Shown here: piece by piece, positions 50,846 through 55,065 of the stretch
Layout of the letters: each line of letters starts with the position of its first letter
How positions within the stretch are numbered: the stretch's first letter is position 1
DNA from: Sphingomonas rubra
GTDB lineage: Bacteria; Pseudomonadota; Alphaproteobacteria; Sphingomonadales; Sphingomonadaceae
Assembly (NCBI RefSeq): GCF_900115745.1
Contig: NZ_FOXP01000002.1
Coordinates: 310,001-374,000 of the forward strand
Reading direction: 5' to 3'
DNA length: 64,000 nt
Position numbers and translations under genes: made by a program
Notes under the pieces: model-generated
Told to the model about the DNA's origin: nothing
Database searches by the model: none
What the model saw: only the letters and a program-made list of their open reading frames with translations

Positions 50846-52009
50846 TCACGTGATGACGTGGGGGACGAACCGGGCCTTGTCGCGGGTGATGGCGACGTCG
50901 TCCTCCCGGATCGACATCGCGACGGGATCGGCCCCCACGATCCACGATCCGACCACGGGCCGGAAGCCGTCGAACACCGGCAGCGGCGCGAGTGCCTGCA
51001 CGATCGCACCCTCGCCACCGTAACCGCCGTCCGGCCCGCGCTCCACCGCCTCGCCGTCGACCAGCTCGATGTCCCAGCCCTCGCGCGAGAAAAAGGGTTT
51101 GCGCGCGTATCGCGGCCCGATCGCCGCGACGCCCGCGTCATCGTCGGCGAAGGCCGCCGGTAGCAGATTGGGATGGCCGCGATGCCGCTCCCACAGCAGC
51201 GGCAGCATCGCCTTGTTGGAGAGGATCGCCTTCCAGGCCGGCTCCAGGAACAGCGCGCGGGCGGTGGCGAGGTGCGCGGCGTAGGGCTCGCGCAGCATGT
51301 CCTCCCATGGATAGAGTTTGAAGATCGCAGAGATGATCGTGCGGTCCTCGTCGACGAAGCGGCCATCGGCGTCGACACCGATCCGGTCGACCGCGACGAA
51401 TTGCGGCTCCAATCCGGCCTGCCGGGCGACGTCCTCCAGGTAGCGGACGGTCTGACGATCCTCGGGATGGTCGGCGTCGCTGGCGAAGTGGAGCAAGCTG
51501 CCCGTCGTCAGGATCTCGCCCATCCGCCCGACCAGCGCGTCGTGCAGGCGGTTATACTGGTCGGCATCGGTCGGCAGCGTGCCGGCCGCGATCATGTCCT
51601 CCAGCCACTGCCACTGGAACAGCGCCGTCTCGAAGATGCTGGTCGGCGTGTCGGCATTATACTCCAGCAGCTTGGCCGGACCATGCCCGCCATAGCTGAA
51701 GTCGAAACGGCCGTAGAGCGAGGGCGCGGGGGCGGCCCAGCTGCGGGTGATCAGGTCGCGATGCGCTGTAGGGATCGCGATCCGTTCCATCAGCGACTCG
51801 CTGCGCACGACCTCGTCGACCAGGTCGAGGCACATCGCGTGCAGCTCGCCGCTCGGGCCTTCGATCTCCTTCTCCACTTCGTCGAGCGAGAAGCGATAAC
51901 AGGCGCGTTCGTCCCAGTACCGCTCGCCGCCGAGATGGTGAAAGGTGAAGCCCATCCGCTCCGCGGTATCGCGCCAGTCCGGGCGCTCCGCGACGACGAC
52001 GCGTTCCAC
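50846..52009 (-). CDS. yjfC: Glutathionylspermidine synthase-type ATP-grasp ligase (YjfC-like)
   Basis: This 387-residue ATP-grasp amide ligase resembles the synthetase half of GspS: AERMGFTFHHLGGERYWDERACYRFSL, LYGRFDFSYGGHGPAKLLEYNADTPTSIFE with the typical Gly-rich and Asn-Ala-Asp stretch, and SNKAMLPLLWERHRGHPNLLPAAF. The length matches E. coli YjfC. Its amidase half is absent, as in YjfC. The GTG start 52009 lies 7 bp after the pspA-like stop. Substrate unknown: either a spermidine-type amine or a peptide/protein C-terminus. It is the distal gene of the yjfI-yjfJ-yjfC side of the locus. Confidence 0.85.
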   Translation of the reverse strand: MERVVVAERPDWRDTAERMGFTFHHLGGERYWDERACYRFSLDEVEKEIEGPSGELHAMCLDLVDEVVRSESLMERIAIPTAHRDLITRSWAAPAPSLYGRFDFSYGGHGPAKLLEYNADTPTSIFETALFQWQWLEDMIAAGTLPTDADQYNRLHDALVGRMGEILTTGSLLHFASDADHPEDRQTVRYLEDVARQAGLEPQFVAVDRIGVDADGRFVDEDRTIISAIFKLYPWEDMLREPYAAHLATARALFLEPAWKAILSNKAMLPLLWERHRGHPNLLPAAFADDDAGVAAIGPRYARKPFFSREGWDIELVDGEAVERGPDGGYGGEGAIVQALAPLPVFDGFRPVVGSWIVGADPVAMSIREDDVAITRDKARFVPHVIT

Positions 52010-52016
52010 GGCGGCG

Positions 52017-52760
52017 CTATTCGCGCGGGAGCGCGCGCGGTTCCGCGCCCGGCAGGCGGGTCGCCTCGCCTCCGTCCTGCGGGCCGGAAAGCCGGCGCAG
52101 GATATCGTCGGCGCTGCTCGATCCCTCCAGCAGGCCGGCACTCCGCAGCTTGGCGTCCAGGTCGGCGCCGGTGCGCATGTCCTCCAGCTCGGCGGAGGCG
52201 CGGAACTTCTCGTCGCGGATCGCCTGCTGCTCCTTGATCCGCTTCAGGCTGTCCGCCGCCGAGCCCATCGACGAGATCGTGCCGCCGTAGCTGGCGGCGA
52301 CGCTCGCCTGCGCCTTTTGCACGCTCTCGTTGGCGCGGACCACCTCCACCTCGCGGGCGAGCGCCTGGATCTTGCCGTCGGATTGCTTGATGATGCCGCG
52401 GATACGATCCTCGGCGCCGCGCATGTCGGCGATCTGCGGCGTCTTGGTCGCCTGCTCGGACTCGATGGAGGCGAGCCGCTCGGCCACTTCGCGCGCCAGG
52501 TCCATGTCGCCGCGCTGCATGGCGGCGCGCGCCGATGCCTCGTACTTGCCGCGCTGGGCGGTGAGGGCGTCGAGGTCCTTCTCGATCAGCCGGCGTCGCG
52601 CGGTCAGCGTCGCTAGATCGTCGCGCGCCTTGCCCTGCGCTGCCTGGGCATCCCGGATCTGCTGGTCGAGAATGACGAGCGCGCGCTTGTCGACGACCGA
52701 TTGCCCCGCCTCGTGCGCGCTGCCGCGCAGCAGGGTGACGAGCTGATTCCACATGGACAT
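52017..52760 (-). CDS. yjfJ: PspA/IM30 family coiled-coil protein (YjfJ-like)
   Basis: The 247-residue protein is a PspA/IM30-like coiled coil: WNQLVTLLRGSAHEAGQSVVDKRALVILDQQIRDAQAA, then long heptads (DLDALTAQRGKYEASARAAMQRGDMDLAREVAERLASIES). PspA proteins bind the inner face of the membrane and help repair it under stress. The C-terminus is Gly/Arg-rich. ATG 52760 or 52754 can be the start. It follows DUF2170 (yjfI) with about 14 bp between and is upstream of the ATP-grasp gene. Confidence 0.88.
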   Translation of the reverse strand: MSMWNQLVTLLRGSAHEAGQSVVDKRALVILDQQIRDAQAAQGKARDDLATLTARRRLIEKDLDALTAQRGKYEASARAAMQRGDMDLAREVAERLASIESEQATKTPQIADMRGAEDRIRGIIKQSDGKIQALAREVEVVRANESVQKAQASVAASYGGTISSMGSAADSLKRIKEQQAIRDEKFRASAELEDMRTGADLDAKLRSAGLLEGSSSADDILRRLSGPQDGGEATRLPGAEPRALPRE

Positions 52761-52774
52761 GCGTTGGTGATCCT

Positions 52775-53191
52775 TCAGGCGGCGAACGCGGTGCGCAGAT
52801 CGTCGGCGGCGGAGATGGCGTTGTCGGCCAGCACCCGCAACTCCAGCACGATCATCTCGATCGGCGACTGCGCCGCCAATTCGCCGACCAACTCGTAATA
52901 GTCGCGTCCATCCACTTCCGTGATCGCGAAATTCGACAGCGGCACGACCTTCTGCGCCTTGAGGACGAAGCGGTTGAAGGCATCCGCGTCCTGCTGCTCG
53001 TCGACCGGCCACAACAGCGTGGAGACGACGATCTGGTCGCCCGCGGCACTGAGAAAGACGGCGAGGTCGCCGTGCTCGCGCATGACGACGTGCAGCACCG
53101 GCTCGTCGCCGCCGACCGCCTCGACTGCGAACTCGTCGCCGTGACCGCGCAGCGCGTCGGCGAGTTCCTCGATTGTCCAACTTTGCGCCAA
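52775..53191 (-). CDS. yjfI: DUF2170 protein (YjfI-like)
   Basis: The 138-residue cytoplasmic protein has TIEELADALRGHGDEFAVEAV, REHGDLAVFLSAAGDQIVVSTLLWPVD and FNRFVLKAQKVVPLSNFAIT, the features of DUF2170 (YjfI). The TTG start at 53191 has GGAAGGA 8 nt upstream and yields the family length; the longer frame, which crosses the divergent promoter, does not. It is the first gene of the minus-strand half of the locus, about 190 bp from the divergent yjfK-like start. Confidence 0.85.
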   Translation of the reverse strand: MAQSWTIEELADALRGHGDEFAVEAVGGDEPVLHVVMREHGDLAVFLSAAGDQIVVSTLLWPVDEQQDADAFNRFVLKAQKVVPLSNFAITEVDGRDYYELVGELAAQSPIEMIVLELRVLADNAISAADDLRTAFAA

Positions 53192-53382
53192 TGCTTCGTC
53201 CTTCCCGCTGCTCGTCGCTTGACACACCAAGCACGACCCCGCAGCACTTGCAACATGGCGGAGCACGATGCCGATGGCCGGGCGCCGGGACGTGGCGCAG
53301 GGGAGACGGACCTCGCCGCGGGCGATGGGCCGTCCCGCTTCGACGTCGATCACCTATTCCCCGCGAAGGAGCGGCTCGCTTC

Positions 53383-54021
53383 ATGATCTGGAAGGCCCTG
53401 TTCGGCAGCGGCGATCGCGCGCGTCCGTCGCGTCTCGCCGAGGTGCGCAACATCACGATCGGGCGCACGGTGACGCTCGACCCGCTCGCCTGGCGGATGC
53501 TGGAGAATAGCGGTTTCCAGCTCGACCGCGACACGCTGGAGATCACCGCCCAAGGGATTGTCAGGCTGGACGACGGCAGCCACGTGCACCGCTTCTACAC
53601 CGACGACGAGCTGATGCTGCAGGCGGTGAGCCAGCAGGCCGACGGATCGGACGCGGACGATTTCACGCTGTTTCGGCCATGGTCGAGCGACTATCCGGCG
53701 GACCGCGGCGACAAGGAGGCGTTTCTGCGTCGCCTGGCGCGACCGCGTTGGGAGCAGGACGGCCTGCCGCCGTTCCGCCGCTACTGGTACGAGGACGACG
53801 ATCGCGAGCAGCCGCCCGTGCAACTGTGGGAAGCGGTCTACTACGACCGCGATGCCGAGCCGGTCCGGCACATCCGGCAGACCTGCATGCTCTACGCCCG
53901 CGATCTCCGTCCCGCGGGACTGGAACTGCTGCTCGCGCTGGCGATGGAGCCGGAGGGCGGCGACTACACGCACGAGATCATGGTCGGCCTGCCGCTCGGG
54001 CCGGCCGAGTTCGGCGCCTGA
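53383..54021 (+). CDS. yjfK: DUF2491 protein (YjfK-like)
   Basis: The 212-residue soluble protein contains ITIGRTVTLDPLAWRML, DDELMLQAVSQQADGSDADDFTLFRPW and YPADRGDKEAFLRRLARPRWEQDGLPPFRRYWYEDDD, typical of DUF2491 (E. coli YjfK). It has no signal or membrane helix. AAGGAG lies upstream of ATG 53383. It heads the plus-strand part of the divergent locus. The function is not known; the family is usually found with PspA-like and ATP-grasp genes. Confidence 0.83.
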   Translation: MIWKALFGSGDRARPSRLAEVRNITIGRTVTLDPLAWRMLENSGFQLDRDTLEITAQGIVRLDDGSHVHRFYTDDELMLQAVSQQADGSDADDFTLFRPWSSDYPADRGDKEAFLRRLARPRWEQDGLPPFRRYWYEDDDREQPPVQLWEAVYYDRDAEPVRHIRQTCMLYARDLRPAGLELLLALAMEPEGGDYTHEIMVGLPLGPAEFGA

Positions 54022-54031
54022 GGGGGGAAGC

Positions 54032-54448
54032 ATGAACTATTATACCGACGTGTTCCTGTACGCGGCGGGGCATTTCGTCCTCGCCTTCGGCCTTGCCTGC
54101 CTGCTGCTGGCGGTGTTCAAGCGGCTCTACCAGATCTCCACGCCGTACGACGAGGCGCGGCTGATCGCGGAGGGCAACGTCGCCGCGGCACTGGCGCTGG
54201 GCGGCGCCATCATCGGCTTCGCGCTGCCGCTCGCCTCCGCGCTGACGGAGACGGCGGACCCGGTCGAGTTCGTCGCCTGGGCGGTGCTCGCCGGCGTGGT
54301 CCAGGTGCTCGCCTCGCTCGTCGTGCGCCGCGTGGTGGTGCGCGACATGGTCGCGCGGATCGAAGCGGGCAACGTGGCGAGCGGCGTGTACCTTGGTGCC
54401 ACCTCGATCGGCGTCGGCCTGCTCAACGCCGCTAGCATGACCTACTGA
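54032..54448 (+). CDS. yjfL: DUF350 membrane protein (YjfL-like)
   Basis: The 138-residue protein has four hydrophobic segments in a DUF350 arrangement (FVLAFGLACLLLAVFKRLYQI, GNVAAALALGGAIIGFALPLASAL, FVAWAVLAGVVQVLASLVV, NVASGVYLGATSIGVGLLNAASM). Its start follows the yjfK-like stop by 10 bp. E. coli YjfL is similar in size. DUF350 proteins may form small channels or scaffolds; nothing is proven. Confidence 0.84.
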   Translation: MNYYTDVFLYAAGHFVLAFGLACLLLAVFKRLYQISTPYDEARLIAEGNVAAALALGGAIIGFALPLASALTETADPVEFVAWAVLAGVVQVLASLVVRRVVVRDMVARIEAGNVASGVYLGATSIGVGLLNAASMTY

Positions 54449-54459
54449 GGAACGGCGCG

Positions 54460-55065
54460 ATGCACCAAACGCCCCGTCGCATGCGCTCCGCCGCCGCCGG
54501 CCTGACCGCCATCGGCTCCGCCGCGATGCTGTCCGGCTGCGACCCGAGCCCCGAGGAGCTTTCCCGTCGGCAATTCGGCGCGCCCACCGAGGTCGCCGCC
54601 TTCACCTCCGTCGGCGAGTGCGTCGCGAGCGGTGATTACAACCGGCAGCAGTGCGAGGATGCGCAGCGCACCGCGAACAACGACGACAATCGCGCCGCCC
54701 CGCGCTTCGCCGACCAGGACGTGTGCGAGGAGCAGTTTGGCAGCGGATCGTGCGCCGTGCGGACGGAGGGCAATCAGAGCTTCTTCACGCCGCTGCTCAC
54801 CGGCTTCCTGATCGGGCAGCTCGCGAACGGGGGTGGCTACCGTTACGGCGGCCTCTACCGCGACCGGCGCGACGATCGCTATTACACCGGCTCCGGCGCG
54901 TGGCTGTACAATGGCGGCTATGGCGGACGGGGCTACCGCTACCAGGTCGGATCGCGCGCGATCACGACGCCGGTGACGACCTCGCGAATCCAGACGCGCA
55001 GTTCCGTCGTGTCGCGCGGCGGCTTCGGTGGCCGGGCGAGCTCGCGCGGGGGCTGGGGAGGGTGA
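54460..55065 (+). CDS. yjfM: DUF1190 lipoprotein-like protein (YjfM-like)
   Basis: The 201-residue protein has a lipoprotein-like start (SAAMLSGCDPSPEELSRR). Four cysteines follow in VGECVASGDYNRQQCEDAQRT and DVCEEQFGSGSCAVRTEGNQSFFTPLLTGFLIGQ, then a Gly/Tyr/Arg-rich tail with RGGFGGRASSRGG. This matches DUF1190 (YgiB/YjfM). It would sit at the periplasmic face of a membrane. It is the last gene of the plus-strand half; its stop is 51 bp from the convergent GNAT gene end. Confidence 0.82.
   Translation: MHQTPRRMRSAAAGLTAIGSAAMLSGCDPSPEELSRRQFGAPTEVAAFTSVGECVASGDYNRQQCEDAQRTANNDDNRAAPRFADQDVCEEQFGSGSCAVRTEGNQSFFTPLLTGFLIGQLANGGGYRYGGLYRDRRDDRYYTGSGAWLYNGGYGGRGYRYQVGSRAITTPVTTSRIQTRSSVVSRGGFGGRASSRGGWGG

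Follow-up and report, generated by a model that had tools for sequence, protein, structure and literature searches.

The stretch of DNA analysed here, referred to as the window, comprises 64,000 nucleotides of Sphingomonas rubra (NCBI RefSeq assembly GCF_900115745.1, contig NZ_FOXP01000002.1, positions 310,001 to 374,000). Positions 50,846 to 55,065 of the window carry six genes of the same families as yjfIJKLMC of Escherichia coli, arranged in two divergent halves. The most informative feature of this locus, overlooked in the original prediction made from the same DNA, is the C-terminal tail of its DUF1190 lipoprotein, which contains an RGGFG motif and ends in Gly-Gly (GG). Judged from the sequences, this tail is likely to be the substrate of the ATP-grasp ligase encoded in the other half of the locus. 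The prediction had read DUF2170, a PspA-like protein and a GspS-type ligase on one strand and DUF2491, DUF350 and DUF1190 on the other, and had named hidden Markov models as the check on the four DUF families. A Pfam profile search of the window proteins bore this out: all six families lie in one neighbourhood, on opposite strands as described, and every protein was placed in its family, above the family's own cut-off and with nearly the full profile covered. The genes and the gap between the two halves are:

50846 to 52009, minus strand: ATP-grasp ligase of the YjfC/YgiC type, 387 amino acids, GTG start; GSP_synth 461.3 bits, cut-off 29.3 (50849-52009)
52017 to 52760, minus strand: PspA/IM30-family (YjfJ-type) protein; PspA_IM30 (PF04012) 149.4 bits, cut-off 33.9 (52020-52760)
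52775 to 53191, minus strand: DUF2170 protein (YjfI/BacA type), TTG start; DUF2170 144.4 bits, cut-off 27 (52778-53191)
53192 to 53382, no strand: divergent intergenic gap, 191 bp, from the sequence
53383 to 54021, plus strand: DUF2491 protein (YjfK type); DUF2491 164.9 bits, cut-off 25 (53383-54018)
54032 to 54448, plus strand: DUF350 membrane protein (YjfL type); DUF350 118.2 bits, cut-off 26 (54032-54445)
54460 to 55065, plus strand: DUF1190 lipoprotein (YjfM/YgiB type), 201 amino acids; DUF1190 (PF06693) 121.5 bits, cut-off 22 (54460-55062)

The DUF1190 protein combines a PF06693 score above the cut-off with a lipobox and an RGGFG...GG tail, and lipid attachment is predicted. All 37 diverse members of an alignment share its Cys27, which lies in a lipobox-like MLSGC. 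The AlphaFold model shows a folded domain (residues 31-150, predicted local distance difference test (pLDDT) 87-97), for which Foldseek returned no match at E ≤ 0.001, and its confidence is low from about residue 171. The C-terminal end reads RGGFGGRASSRGGWGG, and three features were recognized in it:

54970 to 55062, plus strand: disordered C-terminal tail, residues 171-201, proposed ligase substrate; pLDDT of the block 46-54
55015 to 55029, plus strand: RGGFG motif, residues 186-190; G188, F189 and G190 invariant and R186 nearly so in the 37 sequences
55057 to 55062, plus strand: terminal Gly-Gly, residues 200-201, proposed acceptor carboxylate; GG end in 152 of 187 tail proteins

Conservation in the C-terminal third of the 37-member alignment is strong at two places only, the motif and the final Gly, and the stretch separating these two measures between 7 and 48 residues among the representatives. 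The E. coli proteins end alike, YgiB with RGGFG...SMGG and YjfM with RGGYG...HWGG. Within the host's family, a GG end is found in 18 of 19 DUF1190 proteins; the exception (L067, from genome G041) ends in EGS, and KGGVG replaces RGGFG. Among 22,357 six-frame open reading frames of the bacterial sample, 145 have RGGFG within the last 45 residues, two of which were judged not to be tail proteins. The tail also reaches beyond the profile: among the tail proteins, 22 of the 187 from bacteria and 26 of the 73 from viruses miss the DUF1190 profile yet keep the tail. One DUF1190 protein (L165) has a GG end and no GF-type motif. Four further cysteines, C54, C65, C89 and C98, are also invariant in the 37 sequences, which suggests two disulfides or a metal site.

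The window ligase is a standalone, full-length GSP_synth domain near YjfC and YgiC. Its best relatives in the PDB are YgiC (7uk8, E = 4.5e-113) and YjfC (7uk6, E = 2.5e-110), far ahead of GspSA, and it scores 127.5 bits against the NCBIfam model PRK10507, the cut-off of which is 882. YjfC and YgiC are named peptide--spermidine ligases in the RefSeq K-12 record. They are reportedly presented as such by Pederick et al. in 2023 (Biochemistry 62:899), to go by the title. The enzyme class is known, of the peptide-polyamine ligation type, and the window ligase is predicted to belong to it. The same two enzymes have been termed bacterial peptidylpolyamine synthetases (PMC12568646), and a table in another article gives YgiC as lacking glutathionylspermidine (Gsp) synthase activity (PMC12506659). 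The original prediction had held both the reaction and the substrate to be unknown. The first part of this statement gives way to the RefSeq naming, and the second part stands, since the natural peptide substrate of YgiC and YjfC appears to be open in the literature searched. Neither the C-terminal pattern nor DUF1190 as a ligase substrate was found in the open-access literature searched, and the key enzyme paper may discuss it; the candidate substrate seems to be the new addition made here.

Seven residues, R101, D103, E116, N118, K231, K266 and K304, are kept in the window ligase. The first four align with R316, D318, E330 and N332 of E. coli GspSA, which we take to be active-site residues of the ATP-grasp fold, and they are kept in 273-275 of the 278 non-GspSA rows of the alignment. 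The acid at E183 of the window ligase is conserved as Glu in 266 of 278 non-GspSA and 12 of 12 GspSA rows; it matches E391 or E392 of GspSA depending on the placement of one gap, and Glu391 is named for spermidine binding (PMC6272389). Elsewhere the majority residues of the non-GspSA and GspSA rows differ (NADTPT vs NADSAS, Lys260 vs Thr, Glu310 vs Cys in 11 of 12 GspSA, Trp356 vs Phe), so that residues near the substrate separate the two ligase groups. The window ligase falls outside the GspSA group, with 387 amino acids as against 621-656 at the 12 GspSA loci and with NADTPT instead of NADSAS. Two damaged relatives were also met. A ligase-like protein beside a DUF1190 gene (L103:2714-3850) has lost the equivalents of Glu116 and Asn118 and has Arg for Lys304; it is likely a dead ligase, and the genome has a second ligase elsewhere (L155), with no tail neighbour. 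The second ligase gene of genome G650 (L248) is split over two frames and probably broken.

The pairing of ligase and tail was followed in two sets found by the ligase alone, namely the best 80 of at least 590 genome loci and the best 80 of 99 viral relatives. A nearby DUF1190 or tail protein is present at 77 of the 80 genome loci; 76 of these proteins have a GF-type motif, 59 the exact RGGFG and 68 a GG end. The three loci without one are L224 and two on contigs that break off at 3.5 and 5 kb. At the viral loci, a tail protein lies near the ligase in 73 of 80 cases, including the 26 outside the DUF1190 profile. No tail was picked at L273, L316 and L329, where the ligase lies at or near the contig start, nor at L274, L317, L325 and L340, the last of which has an open reading frame ending RDGFGSSGHSSIGG downstream. 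Viral contigs may contain stretches of bacterial DNA.

The wider bacterial sample comprises 207 loci, with 195 non-GspSA ligase loci and tail proteins hand-curated to 187. Roughly one half of these 207 had been selected via DUF1190 and therefore give no independent support for the pairing, which is why the ligase-chosen sets are given separately; the tail search patterns were broadened after the first tails were known. A tail protein is found at 187 of the 195 loci. Among the other eight (L145, L155, L161, L162, L224, L246, L247 and L248), L161 and L162 are cut-off contigs, and L248 is the apparently broken ligase. A further 20 non-GspSA ligase loci comprise 19 of genomes in which Pfam DUF1190 has no match, plus L155, the second ligase of a DUF1190-bearing genome. 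Of these 20, 18 encode a protein with an RGGFG-like tail close to the ligase, the exceptions being L145 and L155. As a control, none of 12 bifunctional GspSA loci has an RGGFG tail or another yjf-profile match within the locus stretch. Across 398 genomes of the phylum, DUF1190 occurs in 63, GSP_synth in 91 and both in 61; PF03738 is thus present in 61 of 63 genomes with DUF1190 vs 30 of 335 others. Both Actinomycetota records examined pair the ligase with an RGGFG or RGGLG tail: the Nonomuraea protein ends QRGGFGRSWTGGS, and that of Tsukamurella has RGGLG...SSGS, with DUF350 behind the ligase.

Many viral contigs (L270-L349), several of them longer than 200 kb, carry ligase and tail protein, often with DUF350. 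The ligase is matched in 134 records of a phage collection, among them T4-like Aeromonas phages as well as Achromobacter phage Motura. In Aeromonas phage 25 (L352:3182-5227), a lipoprotein-like gene ending SSGGFGKSGGFGSSGG directly precedes the ligase, and the next gene carries a lysis-inhibition annotation. A record titled Bacillus subtilis (L235) has a tail nearly equal to that of Stenotrophomonas L232 and is probably a contaminated assembly.

The last residue of the 187 bacterial tail proteins in ligase loci is G in 153, S in 27, T in five, A in one and E in one, and GG is the end of 152 of the 187 and of 65 of 94 representatives (below 60% identity). Among motif-bearing representatives, 64 of 92 end in GG, where 7.0 are expected from tail composition and the maximum in 2000 shuffles was 16; each tail was shuffled after the motif, and relatedness is handled only by the 60% identity cut, so the representatives share ancestry. 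The ligase-chosen 80 alone give 19 of 25 representatives vs 1.5 expected. The 73 viral tails end in GG (33), S (26), A (10) or E (4), with GG at 21 of 51 representatives vs 5.4 expected. Cells show a strong preference for the GG end, and viruses a weaker one. A strict rule of C-terminal GG was rejected, since S, T, A and E ends occur.

The tail was also examined where the ligase is missing. Six genomes have a DUF1190 match without GSP_synth (G041, G555, G751, G817, G855 and G862). In three that are 100% complete (G041, G555 and G817), the DUF1190-like proteins have neither RGGFG nor GG; the match in G555 is weak and spans only the first half of the profile. The proteins of the other three genomes keep the motif, with a contig end beside each locus. 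Weak extra DUF1190 matches without the tail region, three in G380 and one in G567, likewise do not end in GG, and each of these two genomes has a ligase elsewhere with its own adjoining tail protein.

We lean, with somewhat better than even confidence, towards reading the locus as a divergent alphaproteobacterial form of E. coli yjfIJKLMC in which the ligase amidates the C-terminus of the lipoprotein tail with a polyamine. The ligase would recognize the tail through the RGGFG motif, phosphorylate its C-terminal carboxylate at the expense of ATP, and join the carboxylate to a primary amine of the polyamine, spermidine in the case of E. coli and perhaps homospermidine in the window's host. GspS acts in this way on the glycine carboxylate of glutathione. 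In GspS, the C-terminal carboxylate of glutathione is phosphorylated and then attacked by N1 of spermidine (PMC6272389). As ATP is cytoplasmic, the modification should come before or during export. DUF2170 of the YjfI/BacA type has a CesT/Tir-like, secretion-chaperone-like fold (PMC11237479, PMC10948618) and could hold the lipoprotein precursor; this role is speculative because small loci work without DUF2170. The tail would then stand on the outer side of the cytoplasmic membrane as a polycationic arm held by its lipid anchor; this arm could bridge to anionic lipids or lipopolysaccharide, and DUF350, PspA, DUF2170 and DUF2491 would act at the membrane together with it. The PspA-family protein scores above the PF04012 cut-off, which places it in the PspA/IM30 (ESCRT-III-like) family; membrane remodelling is a putative activity. 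Up-regulation of yjfIJKL in heat-evolved E. coli (PMC12492005) agrees with an envelope role.

A broader proposal, to which we give slightly less than an even chance, is that bacteria and many large phages share a one-enzyme, ubiquitin-like protein-polyamine conjugation. The C-terminal Gly, Ser or Ala of an RGGFG tail would be capped with spermidine or homospermidine to give polycationic lipoproteins on the outer face. The core would be the tail protein and the ligase, often with DUF350; PspA, DUF2170 and DUF2491 would be host add-ons, and some phages would bring a polyamine synthase. Achromobacter phage Motura has the order homospermidine synthase, tail-protein gene, ligase, small gene and DUF350-like protein, the last recognized by eye. 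The phage hss-gss cluster has been noted before, and glutathionylhomospermidine was proposed as its product (PMC9992855). The position of the tail protein between hss and gss of Motura suggests that the tail protein is the acceptor.

Several points weigh against amidation of the tail. Not every tail ends in GG: the end differs in 35 of 187 bacterial and 40 of 73 viral proteins, being mostly S, A or T and in five cases E. Five of the 195 ligase loci (L145, L155, L224, L246 and L247) have no findable tail protein with ligase and contig intact. Three loci without a ligase (L236, L238 and L239) keep the motif, and none ends in GG; a contig end lies beside each, so the ligase may be unassembled there. 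Only the E391/E392 region is clearly kept among four acids near the polyamine pockets of GspS. There is also a problem of timing, the ligase being presumably cytoplasmic vs an exported lipoprotein. Lastly, profile searches of the host genome gave no match to PF01564 (SpeE), nspC or PF16653. The host does have a gene of the deoxyhypusine-synthase family (PF01916), some bacterial members of which make homospermidine, and homospermidine is our guess for the amine in this host.

Among other explanations, the one that survives best, though we consider it unlikely, takes the tail as a docking arm, the RGGFG motif of which brings the ligase (or DUF350) to the membrane while the ligase conjugates polyamine to other peptides. 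It fits the observation that the coupling of motif and ligase holds whatever the terminal residue, with SSS, GA and GE ends occurring beside the ligase. However, it leaves unexplained both the excess of GG ends (64 of 92, 7.0 expected) and the nearly exclusive use of small terminal residues, and the motif sits on the exported side of the lipoprotein. It is less probable still that the ligase makes a soluble peptide-polyamine like glutathionylspermidine and that the lipoprotein serves apart from it in metal chelation or sensing. The homology to GspS, the maker of such a metabolite (PMC6272389), points this way, as do the description of DUF1190 as a metal-chelating lipoprotein (PMC11237479) and the glutathionylhomospermidine suggested for the phage cluster (PMC9992855). 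Against this stand the reported lack of Gsp synthase activity in YgiC (PMC12506659), the active-site motif NADTPT vs NADSAS, and the tail protein itself, found at 0 of 12 GspSA loci and nearly always at other ligases. That the C-terminal pattern merely reflects shared descent and a Gly/Ser-rich composition is very improbable: the tails are Gly/Ser rich, and the tail proteins may be one family, several keeping a KRS...MG N-terminus (by eye), but composition accounts for 7.0 of the 64 GG ends, the 22 bacterial and 26 viral proteins outside the profile still keep the tail, and motif and GG are missing in three of three complete ligase-less genomes.

Several known systems lie close to the locus. 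E. coli yjfIJKLMC (with ygiBC) shares the six families, and YjfM and YgiB share the tail; the window differs from yjfIJKLMC in its two divergent halves, with the ligase beside PspA and DUF2170 and away from DUF1190. Genes of this kind occur in nearly all E. coli: a yjf-type query matches 5375 of 5426 genomes, and in 5281 the match spans 80% or more of the query. The third CesT/Tir-PspA group of Ravi et al. 2024 (PMC11237479) has the same gene set as the window; DUF1190 is described there as a metal-chelating lipoprotein, and the section on this group is silent on the C-terminus and the ligase substrate. The bac operon of Pseudomonas aeruginosa has a DUF2170 and PspA pair within six genes (PMC10948618). 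GspSA belongs to the same synthetase family, and its Arg/Asp/Glu/Asn set and polyamine-site Glu are kept in the window ligase, whereas the window ligase has no amidase domain, reads NADTPT for NADSAS and has a tail-protein neighbour, which GspSA lacks. The chemistry proposed resembles the conjugation of spermidine to SUMO and ubiquitin, where a protein receives the polyamine at its C-terminal Gly-Gly carboxylate; E1 and E2 enzymes act there, in contrast to the single ATP-grasp ligase proposed here (PMC12270671). A C-terminal Gly that carries spermidine is heavier by 127.147 Da (PMC12270671). If the proposal is true, DUF1190 gains a function, bacteria gain a new protein modification, polyamines are linked to PspA-type membrane stress, and there is a reason for large phages to carry these genes. 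The tail makes the substrate question of YgiC and YjfC testable.

Within its host, the locus carries the sole PF06693 and the sole PF03738 match of the genome. DUF1190 is found in none of the six other genomes listed for the genus and in 19 of 199 genomes of the family, so the distribution of the locus is patchy. The DUF2170 protein scores 117.8 bits against the NCBIfam BacA model, below the cut-off of 300. The DUF2491 model is confident (pLDDT 91.9) and mostly beta, with no Foldseek match in the PDB at E ≤ 0.001; a triphosphate-tunnel-type identity came up among second-look matches and was left unused, the best Z of 4.4 being too weak.

The genes of each half are spaced by 7 to 14 bp, which makes two short operons likely. 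The shared gap, put at 190 bp by the original prediction, measures 191 bp between the presumed starts, TTG at 53191 (minus strand) and ATG at 53383 (plus strand), of which the TTG is a chosen, unproven start. The claim that the E. coli genes run in a single direction agrees with the K-12 RefSeq record, where yjfI-J-K-L-M-C lie on one strand; the window locus does not share this order, which was not counted as defining. Among 196 ligase loci, a sample that is non-random in that about half was chosen through DUF1190, 31 have the divergent form of the window (three printed variants of one order, taken as sorting of overlapping open reading frames), 13 a second divergent form with PspA and DUF2170 flipped away from the remaining genes, and 22 the co-directional form. 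Most of the remaining loci have fewer genes, in the extreme a ligase plus a tail protein, and DUF350 is often among them. The divergent arrangement (44 of 196) is therefore ordinary and no peculiarity of the window. Divergent gaps were compared for 23 of 45 loci, those estimated at 100-450 bp; estimates above 1 kb stem from poorly guessed starts (L156 was checked) and were unused. These 23 gaps were searched for sigma-54, EcfG and RpoE-like patterns, palindromes and shared 9-mers, none of which was common beyond groups of relatives; the coordinate control of the two halves suggested by the original prediction is a hypothesis. The gap of the window contains an inverted repeat, GCTTG-ACACAC-CAAGC, at 53217-53232, and a loosely similar pattern occurs only in L168 and L201 among the 22 other gaps.

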